Program-made: the position numbers and the translations under genes
Source: Oscillospiraceae bacterium
Lineage (GTDB): Bacteria; Bacillota; Clostridia; Oscillospirales; Oscillospiraceae
Length of the DNA stretch: 64,000 nt
Assembly: GCA_022846075.1 (NCBI GenBank)
Contig: AP025582.1
Location: 2,046,001 to 2,110,000 of the forward strand
Direction: 5' to 3'
In this document: one piece after another, positions 16,721 to 33,347 of the stretch
Layout: every line of letters begins with the position of its first letter
How positions within the stretch are numbered: the stretch's first letter is position 1
The notes under the pieces: model-generated
Databases searched by the model: none
Seen by the model: only the letters and a program-made list of their open reading frames with translations
Told to the model about the DNA's origin: nothing

Positions 16721-16794
16721 TGGAGCAGGTGAAGGGAATCGAACCCTCGTGTTCAGCTTGGGAAGCTGACGTTCTGCCATTGAACTACACCTGC
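16721..16794 (-). tRNA. tRNA-Gly (anticodon CCC)
   Basis: 74 nt including an encoded CCA. The acceptor stem pairs GCAGGTG with CACCTGC, the discriminator is U, and the T arm contains GGTTCGATTCC. The anticodon stem TCAGC/GCTGA encloses TTCCCAA, giving CCC, which reads GGG, a common glycine codon in this GC-rich DNA. It has its own promoter and terminator. Confidence 0.95.
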
Positions 16795-16827
16795 GCATGA
16801 TCTCCCGCCGTTCCGAACGGCTTATAT

Positions 16828-16856
16828 ATCTTAGCATATCCCGCAAAAAGATGCAA
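16828..16856 (-). promoter_or_regulatory. Promoter of tRNA-Gly
   Basis: Minus strand TTGCAT (16851-16856), 17-base spacer, TAAGAT (16828-16833), about 33 bases before the tRNA 5' end. Confidence 0.75.
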
Positions 16857-16882
16857 GAGATTTTTTCGTTTTCTTTCCAAAA

Positions 16883-16918
16883 GGAGGCGCCTCGGCCCAC
16901 GTGGGCCGGGGTGCCTCC
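16883..16918 (-). terminator. Terminator of the MMPL operon
   Basis: A 36-base palindrome (18-bp arms with two G-T pairs, centre CACGTG) lies 13 bases after the secreted-protein stop and is followed by TTTT on the minus strand. Confidence 0.75.
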
Positions 16919-16931
16919 CCCATTTTGCTTC

Positions 16932-19349
16932 TCAGTGTCGGAACAATCCGGTGATTGCCTTCCAAAAATCCGCGAACATAGCCTTGATCCGGCTCCAAAC
17001 AGAGCCCTTTTCCCTCTGCTCCCCGTCCTGCGCCGCCTGGCTGTCCTCTTCCCTCACTTTGATCTCCTGGGTGCGCATAATGTACTGCACGCTGTTGGGC
17101 GTCCCGTTCCGGAGGGAGGTCAGGGAACTGGGCTTCGCTCCGGCGTCCATAAGCAGAAGGTTGTTTTCTCCCCCGGTGTGGGTGTCCCACTCATCGTCAA
17201 TGAGGTCTGTGATGGTGTTTTTGGCGGTTCGGATGGTGCCGGTCCGGTCCAGGCCGTAGGTGGATTTTCGAAGGGAAGCGGCCAGGCCGCCAAGGGTCTG
17301 GCGGGTGCCCTCATCCAGGTCCGGGCCGCTCTGACGGGCCAGGGCCTCGGCGGCGGAGAGGGCCGACCTGGTGTCCCGGAGGGTGGATTGAAGAGAGCCG
17401 GAGAGGGTCTGGGCATCGGCCAGAGCGGTTTGGACCTGGGGTTCATAGGCGTTGAGGATATCATTGAGGCCGTCCAGCTGGCCTAGGGCGTCCTCTGCGG
17501 TCTGAGCCACCTGACCCGCCACGGAGCCCAGGGTGTCCACGTCGGTCAGCAGGGCGGCCCCCTCCCCCTCGTGGGCCTTCATGGTTTTCAGCAGGTCCCG
17601 GCACAGCCCGGCCAGGGCGGACAGGTCGTCGGTGACGCCGGTGTCCCCCAGCTCCCCGCACAGGTCGGAGAGCTGGCCAACCACGTCGGCGGTGGGACGG
17701 GTGAGGTTGGAGATGATATTGTTGACCTCTTTGATCCGCGTGTTGACGGACCCGACCGCGGAGTTCAGGGCGTCCAGCTCCTTCTGCATCGCCTCAAGTT
17801 CCGTCCGGTTCCCGCCGACAAATTGAAGGGCGGCCGCCGCCGCGGTGATCTTGGCTGTCAGCTCCGCCGGATCCGTGATCCCCTTCCCTGTGTAATAGCT
17901 CATAAGGAACCCCTGGACCGCCGCCGGATCGGCGGTGGCGATATCGCCCCCCGCGGCCGCGGCGTAGGCTGCGGCGATCTCGGTGGCCAGCGACACCTGC
18001 CGGTTGACCTCCGCCACCGTCATCTCCCGTCCCCCGATGGTGACTTTCATATCATCCAAGGGGAGCTCGGATGCCTTTACAGTGGAGATCTTTCCGGGGT
18101 TCCGCAGGGCCCCCTCCAGCCGGTCCAGGCTGAAGCGCAGGCCGCCGGTCTCGTCCTCCAGGTCGTCCAGCTCGCTGGCCAGGCTGGCGGCGATGGCGGT
18201 GGCCTTCTTGTTATAACCCTCCACGTCGGTGAGGAGCTCCCGCAGGGCTTTGGTATCCTTCTGGATGGCGGTGATGGTCTGCCGGGTATTTTCCAGGTCC
18301 GGCCGGAGGGATTGGGCCGTGCCGTTGAGCTGGTTGAGGACCGCCGTGGTGTCGGCGGCGGCCTGGGCGGCGGTGTCGAAATACCCATCCATGCTCCCCA
18401 GCGCTCCCGACAGGGCGTCCAGGTCGGCCAGGGCCAGGTCGGCGCCGTCGTAGACGCCCCCCTTTCCCGCCGAAACGGTACCCCGGGCGCTGTTGAGCTG
18501 ATCCAGGCCGTTGGCGGTGGCCCGCAGGCTGCCGCTCATGCCGTCCAGGCTGTTCAGAATCACGTCCAAGCTGTCGTTGATGGCGTCATAGGAGTTCTCC
18601 GTCTTCTCCTTGGCCTCCCGCAGGTCCGCGATCTGGTCCAGCTGGGCCAGGGTGGCGGGGACCGCCAGCAGCACCAGGCCGGAGAAGGTAAAGTCCTCAC
18701 TCCCCACCCGGATGGTGAAATGCCGCTCCTCCCCCGGCATCACCATAAACAGGACGGCCCGCAGGTTGCCCACCAGCTGGACCTCCGCCCCCTCCGCCTC
18801 CAGGGAGAGGATATCGTCGGCGTTGAAGGCTGTGGCGGCGGTGAGGACCAGGTTGTTTCGGTTATACTCCGAGGCACCTGGGTTGGGGTACACGTCCAGC
18901 CCGATCTCGATGAGGCCGCTCTTCCCCGCCAGCTCCTCCGCGGGGGTGGGCACCCCGTTGAGCCGGTAGGACAGGGAGAAAGTCCAGGGCAGGTCCTCAT
19001 AGGGCTGCCGGGTTTTGCCCTCGAAATAGAACCGCTGGGGGGCCTCCTCGCCCAGCTCAAAGGTCACCGCCCCGTCGGAGACGGTGGGGACGATGCCGTC
19101 GGTGAGATTCACCACCCGGTCGTAGACGCCGTAGTCGGTGATGGCGGTGCTGCCGTTGAGCCGGTAGCTCTTCACCACACTGGAGTCCATGAGCTGACCG
19201 TAATAGTCCAGGGTGGCGTAGTAGGATTCATCACAGACGGGGGCCTGGGCCTCCCCCGCCGCAAAAGCGGGAAGGGCCAGCCCCGCCGCAAGGGTCAGCG
19301 CCAGGGCCAGGGCCCCCAGCCGTTTCCCCAGGTTCCATGTTTGTTTCAT
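16932..19349 (-). CDS. Secreted coiled-coil protein, partner of the MMPL exporter
   Basis: 805 aa with a classical signal peptide (basic start, hydrophobic core, cleavage near residue 30 after LPAFA). A beta-rich domain follows (about 35-235), and then a very long alpha-helical, Leu/Asp/Thr-rich region (about 240-760), resembling the extracellular part of YhgE/Pip proteins. The C-terminus has a short amphipathic segment (FADFWKAITGLF) but no clear membrane anchor. It begins one base after the MMPL stop, so it is co-translated with the transporter. Likely outside the membrane, assisting export or contacting the wall; cargo unknown. Confidence 0.75.
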   Translation of the reverse strand: MKQTWNLGKRLGALALALTLAAGLALPAFAAGEAQAPVCDESYYATLDYYGQLMDSSVVKSYRLNGSTAITDYGVYDRVVNLTDGIVPTVSDGAVTFELGEEAPQRFYFEGKTRQPYEDLPWTFSLSYRLNGVPTPAEELAGKSGLIEIGLDVYPNPGASEYNRNNLVLTAATAFNADDILSLEAEGAEVQLVGNLRAVLFMVMPGEERHFTIRVGSEDFTFSGLVLLAVPATLAQLDQIADLREAKEKTENSYDAINDSLDVILNSLDGMSGSLRATANGLDQLNSARGTVSAGKGGVYDGADLALADLDALSGALGSMDGYFDTAAQAAADTTAVLNQLNGTAQSLRPDLENTRQTITAIQKDTKALRELLTDVEGYNKKATAIAASLASELDDLEDETGGLRFSLDRLEGALRNPGKISTVKASELPLDDMKVTIGGREMTVAEVNRQVSLATEIAAAYAAAAGGDIATADPAAVQGFLMSYYTGKGITDPAELTAKITAAAAALQFVGGNRTELEAMQKELDALNSAVGSVNTRIKEVNNIISNLTRPTADVVGQLSDLCGELGDTGVTDDLSALAGLCRDLLKTMKAHEGEGAALLTDVDTLGSVAGQVAQTAEDALGQLDGLNDILNAYEPQVQTALADAQTLSGSLQSTLRDTRSALSAAEALARQSGPDLDEGTRQTLGGLAASLRKSTYGLDRTGTIRTAKNTITDLIDDEWDTHTGGENNLLLMDAGAKPSSLTSLRNGTPNSVQYIMRTQEIKVREEDSQAAQDGEQREKGSVWSRIKAMFADFWKAITGLFRH

Positions 19350-24355: not shown

Positions 24356-24390
24356 AAAAAAGAGCGCCGCCCCGGAGGGCGGCGCTCTTT
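24356..24390 (-). terminator. Terminator of the RnfCDG operon
   Basis: A perfect 14-bp stem (24359-24372 with 24377-24390, loop of four) is followed on the minus strand by a T run, 17 bases after the last gene. Confidence 0.9.
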
Positions 24391-24406
24391 GAACCGCAGC
24401 AGCGTC

Positions 24407-24841
24407 TTACAGCGGCAGCCCGCTCAGGCTTTGGGCCGCAAGGAACAGCACAAAAGCGCTGAGGGCTGGGGCGGCCTTCCCCGCCGGGCCGGAGGCCATG
24501 CGGCGGGCCATGGAGCCGTGCAGGAAGGCGGACACGCCGAAAACCACCATCCCCAGCAGGAACAGCAGGCCCATCTCCTCCGCCCCCGCCAGTCCGGCGC
24601 ACCAGGGCAGCAAGGCGAAGGAGGCCCCCGCCAGCAGAAGATTGGGCACCCAGGCCCGCTGAGCTTTGGGCGAGAGGTAGTTCTCCACCGCCAGGGCCGC
24701 CAGGGAGAAGAAGGCCAGCATGGCCACATCCAGCTTGGGGAGCACGGCCGCCGGGGAAAAGACCTTCACCAGCACCGTGATCAGGCAGGCCAACCCCAGC
24801 AGGGCGGCCAGAATGGTATTCACCAAAACGCTCTTCTTCAT
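24407..24841 (-). CDS. Small integral membrane protein of the RnfCDG operon
   Basis: 144 aa with four or five hydrophobic helices (about 6-26, 37-57, 70-88, 92-112, 126-142). ATG at 24841 lies two bases after the rnfG stop, so it is a true operon member. It does not look like RnfA or RnfE, which are about 190-200 aa with characteristic conserved cysteines; the cysteines here (C19 and WCAGL) do not fit. Its place after rnfG, where rnfE is usual, makes it a candidate substitute membrane subunit. I do not recognise the family. Confidence 0.7.
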   Translation of the reverse strand: MKKSVLVNTILAALLGLACLITVLVKVFSPAAVLPKLDVAMLAFFSLAALAVENYLSPKAQRAWVPNLLLAGASFALLPWCAGLAGAEEMGLLFLLGMVVFGVSAFLHGSMARRMASGPAGKAAPALSAFVLFLAAQSLSGLPL

Positions 24842-24843
24842 GT

Positions 24844-25380
24844 TCAGCCCCCCCATTCCGTGGCGCTGGAGGACACGTCGGCCCCCGTGACAAATGCGGC
24901 GGCGGAGTTGACCCCCTTGGCGATGGCCTTGGAGGTGACGGTGGCCCCGGTGAGGGCGTCCACGTCCTCCCCCACGGCCGCCTCCCCGGCGGTGCCCAAG
25001 AACTGGCTCAAAAAGGCCGTATCGGTGAGGGCCTCATGGCCCAGCCCGAAGGTCTCGGTCAGCGCCCGGACCACCACACCGGTGACGGTCCCCTCGTTGT
25101 CCACGCCCACCAGGAGCCGGATGCCCCCGGCGTAGCCGTCGGTGAGGGTCTCCACCACGTAGCCCGTGTCCCCCTTGTAGACGGCGGTGATGTTCTCGTC
25201 CTCCCCGTCGTATTCCTCCGGGACAAAGGCGGCGCTCCCGGGCAGGAGAACGGACATCATCTCATTTTGCTCCGCCTCGGCGTTGGCCGCGGCGGTGCCC
25301 GCCAGTCCGAACCGGGCCCCGCCCACCAGGGCGGCGGCCACAGCCAGGACGGCAATGGGCTTGATCAGGTCTTTCATCAT
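24844..25380 (-). CDS. rnfG: RnfG-like FMN-binding subunit
   Basis: 178 aa with one N-terminal membrane anchor (about 7-30) and an exported FMN_bind domain. The flavin attachment site is intact: DALTGATVTS about residues 143-152, where ApbE links FMN through phosphate to the threonine of the GAT triplet. Its ATG overlaps the rnfD stop by four bases. In Rnf complexes RnfG passes electrons on the outer membrane face. Here it may deliver them to the lipoprotein encoded upstream, since RnfA, B and E are missing. Confidence 0.9.
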   Translation of the reverse strand: MMKDLIKPIAVLAVAAALVGGARFGLAGTAAANAEAEQNEMMSVLLPGSAAFVPEEYDGEDENITAVYKGDTGYVVETLTDGYAGGIRLLVGVDNEGTVTGVVVRALTETFGLGHEALTDTAFLSQFLGTAGEAAVGEDVDALTGATVTSKAIAKGVNSAAAFVTGADVSSSATEWGG

Positions 25381-26348
25381 GCCGCCCCTCCTTTCAGAAC
25401 GCCGAAGCGCCGGGGCGCGGTATACCGGTCGATGGCCCACACGGCGGCGTTCATCAGCAGGATGGCGTAGGTCACCCCGCCGGGGAAGAGGCCGGTGTAG
25501 CGGAAGACCACGGTCAGAACGCCGCAGCCCAGGCCGTAGAGCAGCTGGCCTTTGGGATTTGTGGGAGAGGTGGCGTAATCGGTGGCCATGAAGATGGCCC
25601 CCAGCATCACGCCGCCGCCGAAGATGCTGTAAAGCATCCACTGAACGGGGTCCTGCCCCTTGGAAAAGAGCAGGGACAGCACCGCCACGGAGCCCAGGTA
25701 GGCCGCCGGGATCCGCGGGGAGATGACCTTGCGGACCACCAGGTAGGCCCCGCCCAGAAGCAGGGCCAAGGCCGAGGCCTCCCCGATGCACCCGGCCACG
25801 TTGCCCAGGAACATGTCCAGCAGGGACGCCTCAGGCAGGGCGGGCATCTGCATATGGTGCAGGGGGGTGGCGGCGGTCACCGCGTCGGCGGCGGAGCCCA
25901 AGAGGGGCAGGTCCTGCCCCAGGGCGGCAAACCGGGTCATGGCGGCGGGCCAGAAGAGGACCAGCAGGGCCCGGCCGGCCAGGGCGGGGTTGAAAATGTT
26001 CTGGCCGATGCCGCCGCAGAGGGCTTTCACCACCACGATGGCAAAGACGCCGCCCACCGCCGCCAGCCAATAGGGCACGGTGGCGGGCAGGGTCATGGCC
26101 AGCAGGACGCCGGTGACGGCGGCGGAGCCGTCGGGCAGGGTGTTGTGCTGATGGGTCAGCGCCCGGTAGAGCCCCTCGGCGGCCAGACAGGCCGCCACGC
26201 ATGCCGCCGTCACCAGCAGAGCCCGGGGGCCGTAGACCACGGTCCCGGCCACCAGGGCGGGGATCAGGGCGATGAGCACGTCCCGCATGATGGAGCCCGT
26301 GCTCTCCTTCCCCCGGATGTGGGGAGAGGATGTCACTGTCAGTTTCAT
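25377..26348 (-). CDS. rnfD: RnfD/NqrB-like membrane flavoprotein
   Basis: 323-aa integral membrane protein with about nine or ten helices, starting MKLTVTSSPHIRGKESTGSI as RnfD does. The covalent flavin site is likely the threonine in DAVTAATPLHHM; GGIGQNIFNPALAGRA and FMATDYATSPTNPKG are diagnostic of the family. It overlaps rnfC by four bases and rnfG by four bases, so the three are made together. It should carry electrons across the membrane between RnfC and RnfG. Confidence 0.94.
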   Translation of the reverse strand: MKLTVTSSPHIRGKESTGSIMRDVLIALIPALVAGTVVYGPRALLVTAACVAACLAAEGLYRALTHQHNTLPDGSAAVTGVLLAMTLPATVPYWLAAVGGVFAIVVVKALCGGIGQNIFNPALAGRALLVLFWPAAMTRFAALGQDLPLLGSAADAVTAATPLHHMQMPALPEASLLDMFLGNVAGCIGEASALALLLGGAYLVVRKVISPRIPAAYLGSVAVLSLLFSKGQDPVQWMLYSIFGGGVMLGAIFMATDYATSPTNPKGQLLYGLGCGVLTVVFRYTGLFPGGVTYAILLMNAAVWAIDRYTAPRRFGVLKGGAA

Positions 26349-27655
26349 GCCTGCTTCCCCTCCTTCAAAGTTCGTTTTCCTACCCGGAACCGCTCCACCA
26401 AAGGAAGCTTGCCGGGGCAGACATAGGCACAGCAGCCGCACTCGATGCAGTCGGCCAGATGGAGCCGCTCCAGCTCGGCCAGATCCCCCGCCTGCTCATA
26501 GCGGTAGAGGTACAAGGGCTGGAGGAGCATGGGGCAGGCCTCGGTGCATTTCCCGCAGCGGATGCAGTGGGGGTGGCCGCTCTCCCCGTTCTGGGCATTG
26601 GACAGGCACAGGACGGCGTTGACGCCCTTTACCAAGGGAGCGCTCAGGTCGGTCTGGGCCACGCCCATCATGGGGCCGCCCGAGACCACCTTCCACACGT
26701 CGTCGGTCAGGCCGCCGGCGGCGGCCACGGCCTCCTCAAAGGAAGCGCCGATGCGGACGATCAGGTTCTTGGGCTCCTTGACGGCCTCGCCGGTGACGGT
26801 GACGATGCGCTTCACCACCGGCTCCCCCTCGTAGACCGCCTTGTAGACCGAGGCGAAGGTGGCGGCGTTGAACACGGCGCACCCCACGTCCTTGGGCAGG
26901 CCGCCGGGGGGCACCTCCCGGCCGGTGACCGACTGGATGAGCTGTTTCTCCGCCCCCTGGGGATAGCGGGTGGGCAGCACCTTCAGCTCGATGCCGGGGA
27001 AGTCCTTCAGCTGTCCCTCCAGCACGGCGATGGCCTCGGTCTTGTTATCCTCAACGGCCAGTACCGCCCGTTTGGACTCCAGCACCCGCATCAGCACCCC
27101 CATCCCCCGCAGGACTTGCTCGGGATAGGTGCACAGCAGGCTGTCGTCGGCGGTGATGTAAGGCTCGCACTCGCAGGCGTTGGCGATCACGGTGTCCACC
27201 TTGCCCATGCCGGTGATGGTCTTCACGTCGGTGGGGAAGGTGGCGCCGCCCATGCCCACGATGCCCGCCTCCCGGATGATGGACACCAGCTCCTCGGCGG
27301 AGAGGCCCTCCGGATCCAGGTGGGGCGTCAGCGCAGAGGCCGGGGTATCCTGGTAGTCGTTTTCAATGACCACCGCCATGCACGTCCCGCCGCCGGGATG
27401 GGGCCGGGGCTCCACGGCCAGCACCCTGCCGGAGACCGAGGCGTGGACCGGCACGCACATGCCGGGGCCGTCGCCGATCTTCTGGCCCAGTCCCACCAGA
27501 TCCCCCGGCTTCACCAGGGGCTCGCAGGGGGCGCCGATATGCTGGCGCAGGGGGATGACCACCTCACGGGGGATGGGGGCCGGGACAGGGTCGTTCCGGC
27601 CGGTCAGTTCTTTGCGGCCCGCCGGATGGACGCCGCCAAAAAACAGGTGTCTCAT
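26345..27655 (-). CDS. rnfC: RnfC-like NADH-oxidising iron-sulfur subunit
   Basis: 436 aa. The order is: N-terminal RnfC barrel domain (FFGGVHP), the flavin/NADH-binding region with GIVGMGGATFPT (about 130-141), the SLBB-like domain, then two [4Fe-4S] motifs, CIRCGKCTEACP and CIECGCCAYVCP, near the C-terminus. In Rnf complexes it takes electrons from NADH on the cytoplasmic side. ATG at 27655 follows GAGGTGAG. It comes 17 bases after apbE. No rnfB (ferredoxin-side) gene is present, so NADH is the only evident electron source. Confidence 0.94.
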   Translation of the reverse strand: MRHLFFGGVHPAGRKELTGRNDPVPAPIPREVVIPLRQHIGAPCEPLVKPGDLVGLGQKIGDGPGMCVPVHASVSGRVLAVEPRPHPGGGTCMAVVIENDYQDTPASALTPHLDPEGLSAEELVSIIREAGIVGMGGATFPTDVKTITGMGKVDTVIANACECEPYITADDSLLCTYPEQVLRGMGVLMRVLESKRAVLAVEDNKTEAIAVLEGQLKDFPGIELKVLPTRYPQGAEKQLIQSVTGREVPPGGLPKDVGCAVFNAATFASVYKAVYEGEPVVKRIVTVTGEAVKEPKNLIVRIGASFEEAVAAAGGLTDDVWKVVSGGPMMGVAQTDLSAPLVKGVNAVLCLSNAQNGESGHPHCIRCGKCTEACPMLLQPLYLYRYEQAGDLAELERLHLADCIECGCCAYVCPGKLPLVERFRVGKRTLKEGKQA

Positions 27656-27672
27656 TTTCTCACCTCAACAAA

Positions 27673-28713
27673 TCATGTACGAAGCAGTTCGGAGAAACCG
27701 GGGCTGTAAAACTCGTTCCCGTCCCCGTCCACCCACAGGGCCTCTGCCCCACAGCGGTCCAGCAACGCCTGTCCCGCCTCCCGGGGCAGGGTGTAAAGGG
27801 CCGTGGACAAAGCGTCGGCCAGGCCGGAGTCGCCGCACAGGATGGTCACCGCCCGCCAGTACCCGGCGGGAAACAGGGTGTCCGGGTCAATGATGTGGTG
27901 GTAGCGGACTCCGTCCACCGTGTAGTAGCGCTGGTAATCGCCGCTGGTGACCACGGAGCCGTCGGTGACGTAGACGGTGTGGAGGTAGTCCTCCCGTCCG
28001 CCGTCCGGGTCCTGGACCCCCACCACCCAGGGGGCGTCCCCCTGGGGCTTGGGCCCGGTGGCCCGGACATTGCCCCCCACGCTGACCAGCAGTCCAGAGG
28101 GCAGGCCCTCGCAAACCCGCTCCACGGCGTAGCCCTTGGCCACCGCCCCCACGTCCAGCCGGAGGTCCGGGTCGGTGATCTCAACGGTGGCGGCCGCCTC
28201 ATCGATAACGACGCGGTCGAAGCCGGTGTGCTCCGCCGCGGCCCGGAGGGCCTGGATATCGGGGAGAGCGGCCTGTTCCGGGTCCTCCACCCCCTCCTCC
28301 CGGGCCTCGTGCCACAGGGAGAGCACGCTCCCCATGGTCACATCCACCCGGCCGCCGGTGCTCTCATAGAGCTCCCGGCAGAAGAGCAGCAGGTCGACGA
28401 TCCGTCCGTCCACCGCCACGGCCCCGCCTCCGGCGCTGTCGTTGAGGGCCTTCAGGTTCACAATGCCCTCGTAGTCGTTGTAGATATCAAAGAGCTGGTG
28501 GTATTCCAGCAGTTCGTCGTGGAAGCGCTGGGTGACGGCCCGGAAGTCCTCCTCACTCTCGGCGTAGCCCACCACGGTGGTCACCGTGTCAAATAGGGTA
28601 AGGAAGCTGGCCTCGTACCGTTTGGGTGTCCGCTCCTCCGCCGCCCGGGCCCCGCAGCCCGTGAGGGTAAGGAGGACCACCAGGGACAGGGACAGCCATC
28701 GCTTTTTGTTCAT
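27673..28713 (-). CDS. apbE: ApbE-type FMN transferase lipoprotein
   Basis: 346-aa lipoprotein: signal peptide with lipobox LTGC (Cys about residue 20), then the ApbE fold. Visible landmarks are VDVTMGSVLSLW, LDVGAVAKGYAVERV and the Mg-binding region near the C-terminus (DSGLADALSTALYTLP). It uses FAD to attach FMN to threonine or serine of exported flavoproteins. Chosen ATG at 28713 has GGAGG 6 bases upstream. Its neighbours RnfD, RnfG and the duplicated lipoprotein are the expected substrates. Confidence 0.94.
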   Translation of the reverse strand: MNKKRWLSLSLVVLLTLTGCGARAAEERTPKRYEASFLTLFDTVTTVVGYAESEEDFRAVTQRFHDELLEYHQLFDIYNDYEGIVNLKALNDSAGGGAVAVDGRIVDLLLFCRELYESTGGRVDVTMGSVLSLWHEAREEGVEDPEQAALPDIQALRAAAEHTGFDRVVIDEAAATVEITDPDLRLDVGAVAKGYAVERVCEGLPSGLLVSVGGNVRATGPKPQGDAPWVVGVQDPDGGREDYLHTVYVTDGSVVTSGDYQRYYTVDGVRYHHIIDPDTLFPAGYWRAVTILCGDSGLADALSTALYTLPREAGQALLDRCGAEALWVDGDGNEFYSPGFSELLRT

Positions 28714-28753
28714 GCCGGTCCTCCTTTTCCGAATCACGGATTAAAATCAGTCC

Positions 28754-29818
28754 TTAGACGGCCTTCTCGATCAGCTCCTGGAACTCGGTGATCCCGATGG
28801 TCACGGAGGAGGCCAGGTCGGCGTCGGTGGCGCTGCCGTGGTCGTCCACGGCGATGCCGGTGATCTCGCTGACGGTCTTGCCGGTGACATACTCACAGAA
28901 GGCGGCGGCCTGCTCGTTCCACTCCTTGCCGATGGAGGAGGCCTTCCGCATGTCGTAGGCGTCGCCCAGCTCGTTCTTGCTGGCCTGGGGCGCGGCCAGG
29001 TCGGTGGTGATGGCGCCGGCGGCGTCGAAGTTCACGTTGGCCTGGACCGCGTCGATGGAGCAGCTGGTGACGGTGTCCCCATTCAGGGTGACGGCGGCCA
29101 CGGTGGTATAGGCCTGGGCCAGGCCGTCGGCCTCGGCGGTGGCGTCCTTGCTCTTGCTCATATTGGTGACGGTGGTGAGGGCCAGCTTATCCCCGGCCTG
29201 GGCGCCCAGATGGGCGGCGTTGGCCACGGCGGCCTCGATGCCCTCCAGGAAGCCGCCCACGGTGACGGTGACGGAGGAGGCCAGATCGGCGTCGGCGGCC
29301 TTGCCGCTGTCGTCGATGGCGATGCCCTTCAGCTCTTCCACCGTCTTGCCCACGGCGTACTCGGCGAAGGCGGCGGCCTGCTCATCCCACTCCTTGCCGA
29401 TGGCGCTGGCCTTGCGCATACCGTAGTCATCGCCCCGCTCGTTCTTGCTGGCGAACTCGGTGTCCAGGGGAGTGACCAGCTTGCCCTCGGCGTCGAAGTT
29501 GATCTTGGCCTGGACGGCGTCGATGACGCAGGAGTCGATGACCCCGTCGTCGGTGACGGTGACCGCCACCAGGGCGATGTCGGCCTGGGCCAGGCCCTCG
29601 CCCTCAGCGGAGGCGTCCTTGCTGCTCTTCACGCCGGTGATCACGGACAGGCCGGTCTTTACGGCCCCCTCAGTGACGGCGGCGGAAGGGGCGGCGGATT
29701 CCACGGGGGCCTCGGAGGGGGCGGGCGTGCCGGCGGCGGGCTTCCCGGCGCAGCCGGCCAGCAGGCCGGCGGTCAGGCTCAGGGACAGGGCGGCGAGAGA
29801 GAGTTTCTTCATGTTCAT
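28754..29818 (-). CDS. Lipoprotein with two tandem FMN_bind-like domains
   Basis: 354 aa: signal peptide with lipobox LLAGC (C23), an Ala/Pro/Ser/Glu linker to about residue 55, and two copies of one domain (about 58-200 and 216-354). Shared features include TVTNxDG-like strands, SCxIDAVQAxxNFDA, ASKNExGDxYxMRKASxIGKEW, EQAAAFxEYxxGKTVxEx and DADLASSVT. The plan resembles PplA of Listeria (two FMN domains on a lipoprotein), but the SGAT flavin site is replaced by LASSVT, so linkage, if any, would be to serine. GGAGG lies 9 bases before ATG at 29818. It is probably the outer electron carrier of this operon (inference). Confidence 0.72.
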   Translation of the reverse strand: MNMKKLSLAALSLSLTAGLLAGCAGKPAAGTPAPSEAPVESAAPSAAVTEGAVKTGLSVITGVKSSKDASAEGEGLAQADIALVAVTVTDDGVIDSCVIDAVQAKINFDAEGKLVTPLDTEFASKNERGDDYGMRKASAIGKEWDEQAAAFAEYAVGKTVEELKGIAIDDSGKAADADLASSVTVTVGGFLEGIEAAVANAAHLGAQAGDKLALTTVTNMSKSKDATAEADGLAQAYTTVAAVTLNGDTVTSCSIDAVQANVNFDAAGAITTDLAAPQASKNELGDAYDMRKASSIGKEWNEQAAAFCEYVTGKTVSEITGIAVDDHGSATDADLASSVTIGITEFQELIEKAV

Positions 29819-29838
29819 CTTGATGTACCTCCATTTTT

Positions 29839-30168
29839 TCATTCGGCTGTGTGTTCGTTCTGCTTCATTTCGAAGTGGATCAGGAAGGACAGAAGCGCGC
29901 GCAGGGCGATGACGGCGCCCAGGACGGTCAGCTCCTTGAGATCCCGGACCAGCACGGTCTTGAGGATCTCGGCCGCCATTTTGAACTCCAAGCTCAGCGC
30001 CAGGCCGTTGGCCAGGCGGAACTTGATGTCGCTGGGCTTCCCCGTGACAAGGCCCTTCAGATACCGCCCGAAGGCGGCCGCTGAGGAGACCCCCACCACG
30101 AAAATGCCCATCATCTCACAAAGGGGGATGAGAAAGGAGAGGACCCATTCAATCACGTTCTCCAGCAT
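29839..30168 (-). CDS. DUF1622 membrane protein
   Basis: 109 aa, two or three hydrophobic helices, with the family pattern RLANGLALSLEFKMAAEILKTVL and VLGAVIALRALLSFLIHFEM. DUF1622 proteins are widespread and functionally unknown. ATG at 30168 follows AGGAGG by 6 bases and overlaps the kinase gene by 20 bases, so it is coupled to it; the lipoprotein gene follows after 20 bases. Its membership in an electron-transfer operon hints at a membrane role in that process. Confidence 0.85.
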   Translation of the reverse strand: MLENVIEWVLSFLIPLCEMMGIFVVGVSSAAAFGRYLKGLVTGKPSDIKFRLANGLALSLEFKMAAEILKTVLVRDLKELTVLGAVIALRALLSFLIHFEMKQNEHTAE

Positions 30169-30676
30169 GGGATACCTCCTGTGAGAGTGTGGGGGCGTTC
30201 CTCCGCCCCCGCATGACCTTGAGCGCCACGAACTGGCTGAGCAGCTCCACCGTTCCCTCCACGCCCAGAGGGCCGCAGTCCACCGTCAGGTCATAGCGGG
30301 CCAGGTCGGCCCACTTGCCCCCGGTGCACACGCCGTAGCGGCGGGACCGCTCCCTGTCCTGGCGCAGGGCCTCCCGCCGGGCCTCCCCCTCGGGAAGCCC
30401 GTACTGGCGGACGATCCGCTCCACCCGGTGGTCCATGTCGCTGTGGAGAAAGACCCGGATGAGCCCCTCGGTGCCGGAGAGCACATGGTCGGCGCAGAAC
30501 CCCAGGATGACGCAGGGCCCCGCCTGGGCCATGGCCCGGATGGCGGCGAAGCGCTGGCGGTCGTCCCCATCCACGTCCAAATCGGCGTCGTGGCACGCGA
30601 TGCCCAGCCGCCGGGCCAACCGCTGGCCGATCTCCTTGCCGCCGCTTCCGTATTTGCGCCCGATGGTGATGACCAC
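30149..30676 (-). CDS. Cytidylate-kinase-like P-loop protein
   Basis: 175 aa with the nucleotide-binding loop GRKYGSGGKEIGQRLARRLG at residues 6-25, followed by a phosphotransfer core (HRVERIVRQYGL, RRYGVCTGGKWADLARYDL). This is the cytidylate-kinase-like family (PF13189 type), distinct from Cmk. Substrate is unknown. GTG start at 30676 follows GGGGGGAG. It is the first gene of the redox operon, and a near-perfect Rex box lies 14 bases upstream of its start. Confidence 0.82.
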   Translation of the reverse strand: MVITIGRKYGSGGKEIGQRLARRLGIACHDADLDVDGDDRQRFAAIRAMAQAGPCVILGFCADHVLSGTEGLIRVFLHSDMDHRVERIVRQYGLPEGEARREALRQDRERSRRYGVCTGGKWADLARYDLTVDCGPLGVEGTVELLSQFVALKVMRGRRNAPTLSQEVSHAGERD

Positions 30677-30689
30677 CCCGCTCCCCCCT

Positions 30690-30707
30690 TTGTGAAATTT
30701 CTCACAA
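30690..30707. promoter_or_regulatory. Rex box upstream of the RnfCDG operon
   Basis: TTGTGAAATTTCTCACAA matches the Rex consensus TTGTGAA-N4-TTCACAA at every fixed position except one. It lies between the (unidentified) promoter and the ribosome site of the first gene, so bound Rex would block transcription when NADH is low. A Crp/Fnr-type protein (TGTGA-N6-TCACA) is an alternative reader. No rex gene is in the window. Confidence 0.72.
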
Positions 30708-30832: not shown

Positions 30833-32581
30833 TCAATCTTCCTCTCCCGCCCTGTCCCGCAGGGGGAACGTGACGGTAAACGCCGCGCCCCCGCCGGGGG
30901 CGGTGCTCAGCTCGATGGACCCCTGGTGCTCCTCCACCACCTGCCGGACGATGGCCAGGCCCAGTCCGGTGCCCCGGCCCGCCTCCTTTGTGGTATAAAA
31001 GGGCTCAAAGATATGCTCCCGGGCCTCCTCCGGGATGCCCGGCCCGGTGTCGGACACCCGCAGCCGGATAAGGGCGCCGTCCGCCCAGGTGGACACCGTC
31101 ACCGTCCCGCCCCGCTCCTCCATGGCCTGGAAAGCGTTGAGCATCAGGTTGAGGAGCATCTGGGACAGCTGGGTCTCATTTCCGTAGAGCCACAGGTGGC
31201 GGCAGTTCAGTTCGGTCTCCACCGCCACACCGGGGGGCTGGGCGGGCGCCACCACCCCCAGCACCTTTTGGACCAGCTCGTCCGGGGAGACAAACTGGAA
31301 GGTGAGGGCGTTGTTTTTTCTCGACAGGTCGGAGAGCCGGGAGATGATCTCCTTGGCCTTCCGGGAGGAGTTGTAGATCTCCAGAACGTTGTCGTAGAGC
31401 TCCGTCTCCTCCGCGGGTAGCTTTTCCAGCGTAAGGATGCTGTACCCCATGATGGGGGTCAGCAGGTTGTTAAACTCGTGGGCGATGGAGGAGGTGAGTG
31501 TGCCGATGGTCTCCAGCCGTTGGTGGTGGGCCAGCTCCTGGGTCTTGCGGTTGAGCTCTTCCATGGCCTCGTTTTTCCTGCGCAGGACCTCCAGCTCCCG
31601 GAACTCCCGCTCCCCGCGCCGCCTGGTCCGCAGGGTCAGGACCACCAGAAGCACCACGCCCGCCACCACCATCCCGCCATAGGCCAGCAGGCGGATGGCC
31701 GCCGTGTGGAGCGGCCTGATGACCCCGTCGTAGTCCACCGACACCCCTACGGCAAAAAATCCGTTGTTCCCCTCCCCGGCGGGGAGAACCGCTATCCGGG
31801 CGGTATAGCGCTTCCCCTCCAGGCAGTCGGCGGTGTCATAAAAGGCAGTCCCCTCCTCCCCCGCCCGCTGGCGCTCCAGCAGGAAGGTCAGGCCTCCGTA
31901 GTCGCAGCTCGTCCCGTCCAGCGCCTCCACCAGGTCCACCCGGGTCCCCTCCCGGACGCGGTGGAGCAAAGTCTGCCCCCCGGCGTCCAACAGCAGGATA
32001 CGGTCCTGGGTGCCGGAGGTCAGATCCCCCGCCACCCGCTGATAAAAGCCGGGCAGATCCATGAGGGCGGCGTAGCTCAGGCCGCCCCCCATCTCCCGGA
32101 CAAAGGCCAGATAGATGTTCCCCGCCCCGTCCAGGCAGGGGCGGACGGCGCCCTTGCCCACCTCCCGCCCGGCATTGGGCGGGATCACGTAATCCGTCGT
32201 GCCGCTGGTGGAGAGAAGGACCTGCCCGTCCCGAATGGCCAGCATGGCCGTAATGAGTTCATCCTGGGCCAGAACGTTCTCCCTCATATGGCTCAGCAAA
32301 GTCTCCGAGTCTCCCTCGGTCCGCCAGCGGATCTCCGCCGACCGGAAGCCCCAGCGCTCCACGGTGTCGTCCAGGCTCTCCCCATACCGGCTCAGATAGC
32401 TGGCTACGCTCCGGTCCACGGACCGGGCCAGGCTGAAGAGCTTCTCGTCCTCGCTGGCGAGGATGATGTCCTCATATTTGGTAAAGACCCGCCCCACCAT
32501 GACGATGCCGGTGATGATAAGGGCCAGGATCAGCCCCAGAGCCGCAAAAAACCGCCTTCTTCTTTTCTGGATCGACTCCAC
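30833..32581 (-). CDS. Sensor histidine kinase with large extracellular domain
   Basis: 582 aa: TM1 (about 12-31), an extracellular region of about 265 residues with a Cache-like strand pattern, TM2 (297-318) and a coiled segment. HisKA follows with H368 in SSIAHEFNNLLTPIMGY and HATPase_c with DTGPGIP and GTGLGLAIV. The HEFNN form is common in hybrid-type and NtrB-like kinases. GTG start at 32581 follows GGGGGTGG. It is divergent from the response-regulator gene at 32664, its probable partner. The ligand is unknown; closeness to the electron-transfer operon suggests a related signal. Confidence 0.93.
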   Translation of the reverse strand: MESIQKRRRRFFAALGLILALIITGIVMVGRVFTKYEDIILASEDEKLFSLARSVDRSVASYLSRYGESLDDTVERWGFRSAEIRWRTEGDSETLLSHMRENVLAQDELITAMLAIRDGQVLLSTSGTTDYVIPPNAGREVGKGAVRPCLDGAGNIYLAFVREMGGGLSYAALMDLPGFYQRVAGDLTSGTQDRILLLDAGGQTLLHRVREGTRVDLVEALDGTSCDYGGLTFLLERQRAGEEGTAFYDTADCLEGKRYTARIAVLPAGEGNNGFFAVGVSVDYDGVIRPLHTAAIRLLAYGGMVVAGVVLLVVLTLRTRRRGEREFRELEVLRRKNEAMEELNRKTQELAHHQRLETIGTLTSSIAHEFNNLLTPIMGYSILTLEKLPAEETELYDNVLEIYNSSRKAKEIISRLSDLSRKNNALTFQFVSPDELVQKVLGVVAPAQPPGVAVETELNCRHLWLYGNETQLSQMLLNLMLNAFQAMEERGGTVTVSTWADGALIRLRVSDTGPGIPEEAREHIFEPFYTTKEAGRGTGLGLAIVRQVVEEHQGSIELSTAPGGGAAFTVTFPLRDRAGEED

Positions 32582-32593
32582 AGCCCCACCCCC

Positions 32594-32622
32594 TTGTCAA
32601 ACCGCCGGTTTTTGTCTATACT
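32594..32622 (+). promoter_or_regulatory. Sigma-A promoter of the response regulator at 32664
   Basis: TTGTCA (32594-32599), 17-base spacer, TATACT (32617-32622). The divergent kinase promoter must lie in the same 82-base gap; I do not see its elements clearly. Confidence 0.8.
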
Positions 32623-32663
32623 AACCATACACGATTGTTTTCAGCCTGTAAAGGGGGAGAATC

Positions 32664-33347
32664 ATGGCCGACACCGTACTCATCGTAGACGACGACCAGT
32701 CCGTCCTCACCATGTTGTATAAGGTAGTCAAAAGCAACGGCATCGACGCCCACACCGCCTCCAGCGGCGAAGAGGCCCTGGAGCTGCTGGCCCACGAGGC
32801 TTACGACTGTATCCTCCTGGACGTGAACATGCACGGCATGGACGGCTTCGCCGTTGTCCAATCCATCCGCCGCCGCGGGCTGAAGACCCCCATCATCATC
32901 GTCAGCGGCCGGAAAGAGGATTACGACACCCTGTACGGCCTGGATATCGGGGCTGACGACTACGTCACAAAGCCCTTCAACCCCATTACTCTGGGGGCCA
33001 AGGTCAAGGCCCTCATCCGCCGCAGCCGGGACAATCTTCCCGGGGCGAACGCCCTCATTACCGCCGGCCCCTTCCAATACAATACCAGCACCCTGCGGTT
33101 CTATAAAAACGGCGTGGAGATCCCCCTCTCCTCCAAGGAAAACGCCATGATGAAGCTCTTCATCGACAATGTCAACCGCATCTTTTCCAAGGACATGCTC
33201 TACGATCTTATCTGGGGGGAGGCCATCATCGACGAAAACGCCATCATGGTGTACGTGAACCGCCTGCGCCAGAAAATTGAGGAGGACCCCTCCAGCCCCA
33301 AGTATATCCAGACGGTCCGGGGCCTGGGCTACCGCTTTGTGGTCTGA
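32664..33347 (+). CDS. OmpR-family response regulator
   Basis: 227 aa: receiver domain with D9-D11, phospho-acceptor D53 (ILLDVNMHGMDG) and K103 in VTKPF, then a winged-helix output domain (VEIPLSSKENAMMKLFIDNV, TVRGLGYRFVV). A GGGGGAG ribosome site lies 4 bases before ATG at 32664. It is divergent from the kinase at 30833. Candidate targets are its own region and the RnfCDG operon 2 kb away; neither is shown by sequence. Confidence 0.94.
   Translation: MADTVLIVDDDQSVLTMLYKVVKSNGIDAHTASSGEEALELLAHEAYDCILLDVNMHGMDGFAVVQSIRRRGLKTPIIIVSGRKEDYDTLYGLDIGADDYVTKPFNPITLGAKVKALIRRSRDNLPGANALITAGPFQYNTSTLRFYKNGVEIPLSSKENAMMKLFIDNVNRIFSKDMLYDLIWGEAIIDENAIMVYVNRLRQKIEEDPSSPKYIQTVRGLGYRFVV

Follow-up and report, generated by a model that had tools for sequence, protein, structure and literature searches.

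The window analysed here is a stretch of 64,000 nucleotides from an Oscillospiraceae bacterium (GenBank assembly GCA_022846075.1, contig AP025582.1, positions 2,046,001 to 2,110,000), in which genes for RnfC, RnfD and RnfG, three subunits of the Rnf complex, share an operon with a lipoprotein and a flavin transferase. Eight genes, all on the minus strand, occupy 30676 to 24407; neighbouring genes either overlap (by 20, 4 and 4 bases) or are separated by 2-40 bases. In the order of transcription they encode a cytidylate-kinase-like protein (30149..30676, GTG start, 175 amino acids; PF13189, Cytidylate_kin2), a small membrane protein of the DUF1622 family (29839..30168, 109 amino acids; PF07784), a lipoprotein of PplA type (28754..29818, 354 amino acids, with a lipobox to C23 and two repeated FMN-bind-like domains), an ApbE flavin transferase (27673..28713, 346 amino acids, lipobox LTLTGC; PF02424), RnfC (26345..27655, 436 amino acids), RnfD (25377..26348, 323 amino acids), RnfG (24844..25380, 178 amino acids) and, at the RnfE/RnfA position, a membrane protein of 144 amino acids with five helices (24407..24841). 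The kinase-like protein, DUF1622 and ApbE exceed their Pfam cut-offs; neither the lipoprotein nor the 144-residue protein exceeds that of any Pfam family, and no rnfA, rnfB or rnfE is recognised by Pfam among the operon proteins. RnfC reaches 497 bits against TIGR01945 (cut-off 246), RnfD 319 bits against TIGR01946 (cut-off 207) and RnfG 55.7 bits against FMN_bind (cut-off 22), while RnfG stays below the cut-off of 102 for TIGR01947 with 65 bits. RnfD matches PF03116 alone, without a fused PF00175. The open-access literature yielded no function for DUF1622.

Downstream of the last gene, a stem search finds a terminator-like hairpin of 14 pairs followed by a T-run (24359..24390). The surrounding 7-kb region holds 7 terminator-like sites against 3.8 ± 1.9 in shuffles, the strongest being this one, read 24390-24359, and a stem upstream of the operon at 30820-30784. 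The picture drawn by the first-pass annotation, of eight tightly packed genes that end at a single strong terminator and include an intact RnfC, RnfD and RnfG, is thus borne out.

The source genome is a single contig of 3.23 Mb (completeness 97.84). At a distance of about 87 kb from the window operon it also carries a single complete rnfCDGEAB operon, which includes a C, D and G of its own. Profiles match RnfC_N twice, FMN_bind twice and PF02508 twice in this genome; both PF02508 matches, one RnfC_N and one FMN_bind lie in the complete operon, and the window set is therefore a second, partial Rnf, a paralogous copy. The first-pass annotation had held that a separate rnfA, rnfB and rnfE unit assembling with the window subunits would speak against its inference. 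Such genes do exist, but as members of a complete operon that brings a C, D and G of its own; the objection applies in form only.

Lipoprotein loci of three types

Relatives were sought with the lipoprotein (P0003) in 150 genomes of the family, sampled evenly from a larger group. At E ≤ 0.001, 39/150 genomes match, the weak ones mostly over the signal region, and at E ≤ 1e-20, 21/150. These 21 are of three types. In type 1 (8/21) the lipoprotein, mostly with ApbE, stands beside Ndh2, a polyprenyl synthase and UbiA, often with EetA/EetB, some of these loci being cut by contig ends. Type 2 (8/21, the window's genome included) has the lipoprotein, ApbE, RnfC, RnfD, RnfG and the 144-residue protein. 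In type 3 (5/21) the lipoprotein and ApbE occur with RnfC, D, G, E and A. When named genomes were scanned, the lipoprotein alignment being the query, 495 relatives were confirmed, and the best 80 of the 495, a ranked selection and not a census, comprise 32 loci of type 1, 25 of type 2, one variant (L115), one that was dropped (L111) and 21 with neither gene set in reach. The comparisons below rest on 33 type-2 rows (32 distinct, L040 being identical to L069) and 40 type-1 rows. Type-2 members include Flavonifractor plautii ATCC 29863 (L066), three further Flavonifractor genomes, an Intestinimonas metagenome-assembled genome (MAG) and Lachnospiraceae MAGs.

The lipoprotein, ApbE, RnfC, RnfD and RnfG are present in all 33 type-2 loci, and the 144-residue protein follows RnfG in 31 of them (30 by tblastn, L102 by hand), the other two stopping at a contig end. 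EetA (17/33) and EetB (18/33) lie within about half of the clusters. DUF1622 (17/33) and the cytidylate-kinase-like protein (9/33) are accessory, so that what relatives keep is a core of six genes, not all eight. No RnfB adjoins the 33 loci, save for two distant iron-sulphur matches below 36% identity. The partial gene set could suggest a decaying Rnf duplicate without present function; this is highly improbable, since the reading frames in the window are intact, gene order and 4-base overlaps are kept across genera in most of the 33 loci, and the cofactor residues persist. Two loci were dropped from type 2: L111, where RnfC/D lie far off on the other strand, and L115, in which the genes are ordered differently and the contig breaks off. 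L073 (a fragment of RnfC only) and L086 (contig end) were left out of the count. The Mobilitalea sibirica locus L111 has, at 16773-18335, a distant RnfC/RnfD pair, far from the lipoprotein, with an RnfD-like frame of 608 amino acids; L115 reads EetA-EetB-DUF1622-lipoprotein-ApbE, then several RnfG-like frames and, where the contig ends, RnfC and RnfD. The statement in PMC7074142 that cad-apbE pairs occur only in genomes without rnf genes finds counter-examples in the lipoprotein/ApbE/rnf loci described here.

Ndh2, UbiA and polyprenyl synthase are found within about 20 kb in 0/33 type-2 loci (the window's own match lies 24 kb away), and RnfC, RnfD and RnfG in 0/40 of the quinone-type loci; the lipoprotein-ApbE pair adjoins either Ndh2 and quinone genes or RnfCDG, and both together in no fetched locus. 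At the level of genomes, UbiA has no match in the window's own genome (the control was positive in 14/14 genomes), and by type it occurs in 0/8 genomes of type 2, 8/8 of type 1, where its presence is partly a matter of definition, and 0/5 of type 3. Because only 21/150 genomes of the family exceed the UbiA cut-off (25/150 at E ≤ 0.001), the 0/8 in type 2 is unremarkable, and the absence was dropped as a statistical signal. What matters is that no demethylmenaquinone route that could serve an Ndh2-type chain is visible in the type-2 genomes.

RnfC and RnfD of type 2 each form a lineage of their own. In trees of RnfC and of RnfD, with 58 rows each, all 33 type-2 rows lie on one side of one branch (support 100/99 in both), and complete Rnf of the same family falls outside this clade. 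Type 3 is placed elsewhere in the two trees, with L143 and L151. The cofactor residues examined are kept. RnfC retains its NuoF-type domain for flavin mononucleotide (FMN) and reduced nicotinamide adenine dinucleotide (NADH), as well as cysteines 364, 367, 370, 374 and 403, 406, 409, 413; RnfD retains the covalent-FMN residue Thr161 and Asn120 and Asp257 of the riboflavin site; RnfG retains its FMN residue Thr147, within LTGAT, and Tyr83. The eight RnfC cysteines, RnfD N120, D155, T161 and D257 and RnfG T147 each reach a conservation of 94% or more among 19 complete-Rnf rows and of 90% or more among the 33 type-2 rows. These figures are alignment-based and were used in place of a strict motif pattern, by which the RnfD flavin site is counted in 23/33 and that of RnfG in 31/33. 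Alignments to PDB structures equate window T147, Y83, N120, D257 and T161 with Acetobacterium woodii T185, Y113, N123, D249 and T156. According to PMC11889175, mutation of T185 or Y113 (FMN-G) and of N123 or D249 (riboflavin) stops the A. woodii Rnf, and T156 is the FMN-D residue. Since the RNF path from RnfG to NAD+ is described as running over RnfG-FMN, RnfD-FMN, riboflavin, the RnfC clusters and FMN (PMC12174285), C, D and G make up an unbroken chain.

The ferredoxin side of the complex

The protein at the end of the operon had been described as unrecognised, with rnfA, rnfB and rnfE all absent. Pfam agrees on both points, yet a profile of 30 of the 144-residue sequences, compared by hhalign with RnfA (19 sequences), aligns at 93.4% (E 2.5e-7) over 56 columns at the C-terminal end of RnfA. 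Half-samples gave 72-95% in 20/20 cases. The other nine comparisons stay at or below 2.3%, RnfE (2.3%) included, except for RnfA of type 3 (40.6%); 100 column shuffles reach at most 2.3% and reversed profiles at most 2.5%. When the membrane proteins of the loci were clustered into nine families, that of RnfA/E alone was matched, and the seven unrelated ones (7/7) scored below 1%. A mixed RnfE and RnfA profile gave 56.9%. A hidden Markov model of RnfA, run over 4858 six-frame reading frames of the 33 loci, returned 4 matches, of which three are 144-residue proteins (E 0.0057, 0.019 and 0.92). An extended alignment to RnfA 35-196, of low confidence, omits the first helix with Cys28 and shows no cysteine at Cys116, and no conserved cysteines stand at the RnfA/E cluster positions. 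Two results weigh against descent from RnfA: the protein has no match to Pfam PF02508, and a fold search gave no match confirming RnfA. The best sequence match in the PDB, cytochrome bo3 subunit 4, was taken as chance (E 0.11). On balance the profile comparisons make it quite probable that the protein is a shrunken, cysteine-less remnant of RnfA, and rnfA would then not be simply absent from the operon.

It might be supposed that the second C, D and G assemble under some condition with RnfA, RnfB and RnfE of the complete operon, into a form of Rnf that makes additional contact with the lipoprotein. The complete rnfCDGEAB operon of the window's genome would allow this, and an rnfA/E pair is present in 7/8 type-2 genomes of the family sample. 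The eighth, G135 (99% complete, 1% contamination, about 70 contigs), carries the type-2 operon and has no PF02508 match, hence neither rnfA nor rnfE. Its sole PF04060 match is a protein of 760 amino acids, unlike RnfB in length and neighbours, which we take to be a corrinoid iron-sulphur protein, so that G135 has no recognisable RnfB. The evidence from G135 carries a caveat, in that its lipoprotein (L051:10476-11515) reads in two frames, through an assembly error or a true break. Type-2 sets also have a partner of their own at the RnfE/A position in 31/31 loci whose contig continues, and the separate clades of RnfC and RnfD further weaken the case for shared subunits. RnfG points the same way. 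In the Clostridium tetanomorphum structure a four-helix bundle is made up of the helices of RnfB and RnfG together with a single helix from RnfA and another from RnfE (PMC9588780), and loss of these partners should therefore show at the RnfG helix. Positions in this membrane helix and at its exit that do not vary among the 19 complete-Rnf rows are indeed changed in the 33 type-2 rows (e.g. T39 and I43), T39 being replaced by L in 33/33. Borrowing of subunits from the complete Rnf is thus improbable.

Type 3 points to a comparable loss by a different road. In four of its five loci (L053, L055, L056 and L057) the order is lipoprotein-ApbE-C-D-G-E-A, with EetA and EetB and no RnfB nearby. The cysteines of RnfA and RnfE that are described as ligands of a [2Fe-2S] cluster (PMC9588780), all four of which are kept in 19/19 complete Rnf rows, are lost at 15/16 positions in these loci: RnfA keeps 0/8 and RnfE 1/8 (the first site, in L056), the RnfA cysteines of L053 being read by translation only. 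The fifth locus, L054, has a complete CDGEAB with all four cysteines. Three type-3 genomes (G109, G004 and G052) carry extra PF02508 matches beyond the RnfE/A pair and a PF04060 match elsewhere; a fourth, G114 (79% complete), has no PF04060 match. Judged by these residues and by gene content, the four loci are a further case, separate from type 2, in which the ferredoxin side was lost beside the same lipoprotein. RnfD Gln115 (L003 numbering) is fixed in 19/19 complete Rnf, replaced by G, A or C in 33/33 type-2 rows and by C in 5/5 of type 3; it was rejected as a diagnostic residue, as L054, a complete Rnf with all cysteines, has also lost it.

A candidate exit line for NADH electrons

Two FMN-bind-type domains of about 150 amino acids each lie behind the lipobox of the lipoprotein, as in PplA/FMN-bind2 proteins. 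Its candidate flavinylation motif occurs twice, around T184 (codon 29269-29267) and T340 (codon 28801-28799), and reads SSVT against the canonical [S/T]GA[S/T], not SGAT. Systems for extracellular electron transfer (EET) are defined in PMC8238504 by, among other features, ApbE and a flavinylated lipoprotein in one cluster; the operon has ApbE and a PplA-type lipoprotein whose flavinylation is predicted. Enlarged lipoproteins of 994 and about 660-700 amino acids, in which the two-domain unit stands three times or twice in tandem, are found in L044:6365-9349, L048:11470-13560, L105, L107 and L130. In L050:16290-17947 it is RnfG that is enlarged: its frame of at least 552 amino acids, cut by the contig end, holds three FMN_bind domains and a C-terminal tail resembling the domain of the lipoprotein (pairwise E 2e-6), an architecture that hints at direct transfer from RnfG to the lipoprotein.

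Gene content, conservation, the residues kept and lost and the pattern of replacement are observed; from these we infer flavinylation, direction, transfer from RnfG to the lipoprotein, the acceptor and the lack of pumping. The operon probably encodes the NADH-side half of Rnf, stripped of the ferredoxin half and turned into an electron exporter that works in one direction. Cytosolic RnfC, with FMN and two [4Fe-4S] clusters, would oxidise NADH, and electrons would cross the membrane by way of RnfD, with its riboflavin and covalent FMN, to reach the covalently bound FMN of RnfG. From there they would pass to the two-domain lipoprotein, instead of to RnfA/E and ferredoxin, and on to an outside acceptor such as ferric iron, free flavin, quinone or similar. 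The operon's ApbE would attach the flavins, and the 144-residue protein may hold the membrane helix of RnfG. The RNF path from RnfG to NAD+, run backwards, would thereby become an exit line for electrons, in which the RnfCDG half replaces Ndh2 and demethylmenaquinone of the known flavin-based exporter. A chain from NADH to the outside without the ferredoxin-linked part had already been suggested by the first-pass annotation, and this suggestion is strengthened by the RnfC/RnfD clade, the kept residues, G135, the replacement of Ndh2 and quinone genes and the loss of cysteines in type 3. With RnfB, RnfE and the [2Fe-2S] site lost, the window set cannot operate the ferredoxin path. The pumping site of RNF has been proposed to lie in RnfA/E for A. 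woodii (PMC11889175) and in RnfD for C. tetanomorphum (PMC12174285); if the Na+ site is in RnfA/E, export would not be ion-coupled.

The same carriers can run both ways, and complete Rnf is reported to be reversible (PMC11889175), so the lipoprotein might take up electrons from outside, with the chain reducing NAD+, or act as a two-way valve. That RnfCDG stands in place of Ndh2 beside the same lipoprotein argues that electrons are donated by NADH, just as they are in the known exporter, and makes both readings very unlikely. The acceptor could, in turn, be a dedicated outside reductase and not a range of diffuse ones, flavinylated outside reductases being known partners of PplA/FmnB (PMC9973259). 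Among the FMN_bind and PF00890 matches of the window's genome there is no outside flavinylated reductase, other reductase families lying outside the search: the only two FMN_bind matches are both RnfG, and the sole full-length PF00890 match is an unexported protein adjoining a PreA-like gene. Supply to one such reductase is, on these grounds, unlikely.

Flavin for the outside may come from another locus. An EetB-EetA-ApbE trio lies at 957.9-959.8 kb of the genome's contig (C1; G000, L159), away from both rnf sets, and is a possible route of flavin adenine dinucleotide (FAD) export for both, by analogy with EetB, described as a FAD-exporting ECF-S subunit (PMC9973259).

If types 2 and 3 are read together, it may be proposed, tentatively and with the balance tilting slightly against it, that a quinone-free, non-pumping NADH exporter derived from Rnf arose at least twice in Clostridia: once by loss of RnfB and RnfE with RnfA reduced to a cysteine-less stub (type 2), and once by turning RnfE and RnfA into cluster-free scaffolds without RnfB (type 3), both coupled to a lipoprotein of PplA type. 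The two halves of Rnf would then be separable machines.

Upstream of the operon lies a sensor histidine kinase (30833..32581, minus strand), and divergent from it a response regulator with REC and Trans_reg_C domains (32664..33347, plus strand). Homologues of the kinase (45-72% identity, at least 540 amino acids) occur in the fetched stretch of 14/32 other type-2 loci, and the pair (30833-33347), conserved next to these 14, is a candidate sensor and regulator of the export operon.

The window set combines features of several known systems. With the Rnf complex (RnfABCDGE) it shares RnfC, RnfD and RnfG with all examined cofactor residues, in the order C-D-G; it differs in lacking RnfB and RnfE, in having at most a cysteine-less remnant of RnfA, in its own lipoprotein and ApbE and in its separate clade. 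With the flavin-based EET system of Listeria (Ndh2, demethylmenaquinone, PplA, FmnB, EetA, EetB) it has in common the two-domain lipoprotein and ApbE; EetA/EetB belong to the cluster in about half of the relatives, and in the window's genome they lie elsewhere. It differs in that Ndh2 and the quinone genes are replaced by RnfCDG and that the genome has no UbiA. Use of a partial NQR/RNF for one-way flow has already been published for RnfD-NqrF fusions (PMC8238504, PMC10979944). In these NQR/RNF-like systems (Meheust et al. 2021, PMC8238504), NAD(P)H is proposed to give its electrons to an FMN-bind protein outside the cell; the systems are described as PF03116-PF00175 fusions that have a single partner and lack the flavin threonine of RnfD, whereas the window set has RnfC as its NADH module and keeps that threonine. 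The multi-flavinylated RnfG clusters of PMC8238504, in which RnfG is joined by further flavin domains and a second route outside is suggested, resemble L050; they are RNF clusters defined by RnfB, and in this the window set differs. No description of an RnfC-based partial Rnf tied to a PplA-type lipoprotein was found in the open-access literature, subscription papers and supplements being outside its scope.

PMC8238504 defines RNF by RnfB, EET by the NADH dehydrogenase K03885 with a membrane helix, and NQR/RNF-like systems by the PF03116-PF00175 fusion. The window operon has none of the three and falls outside all of these definitions, so that genomes carrying such a set may be missed or annotated as having an ordinary Rnf. 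As a natural dissection of Rnf, a stand-alone NADH half would provide a direct test between Na+ pumping in RnfA/E, the proposal for A. woodii, and in RnfD, that for C. tetanomorphum. If the proposed export is true, common gut anaerobes such as Flavonifractor plautii could unload NADH to the outside without quinones, hydrogen or cytochromes, which would alter the list of gut organisms predicted to be capable of respiration.

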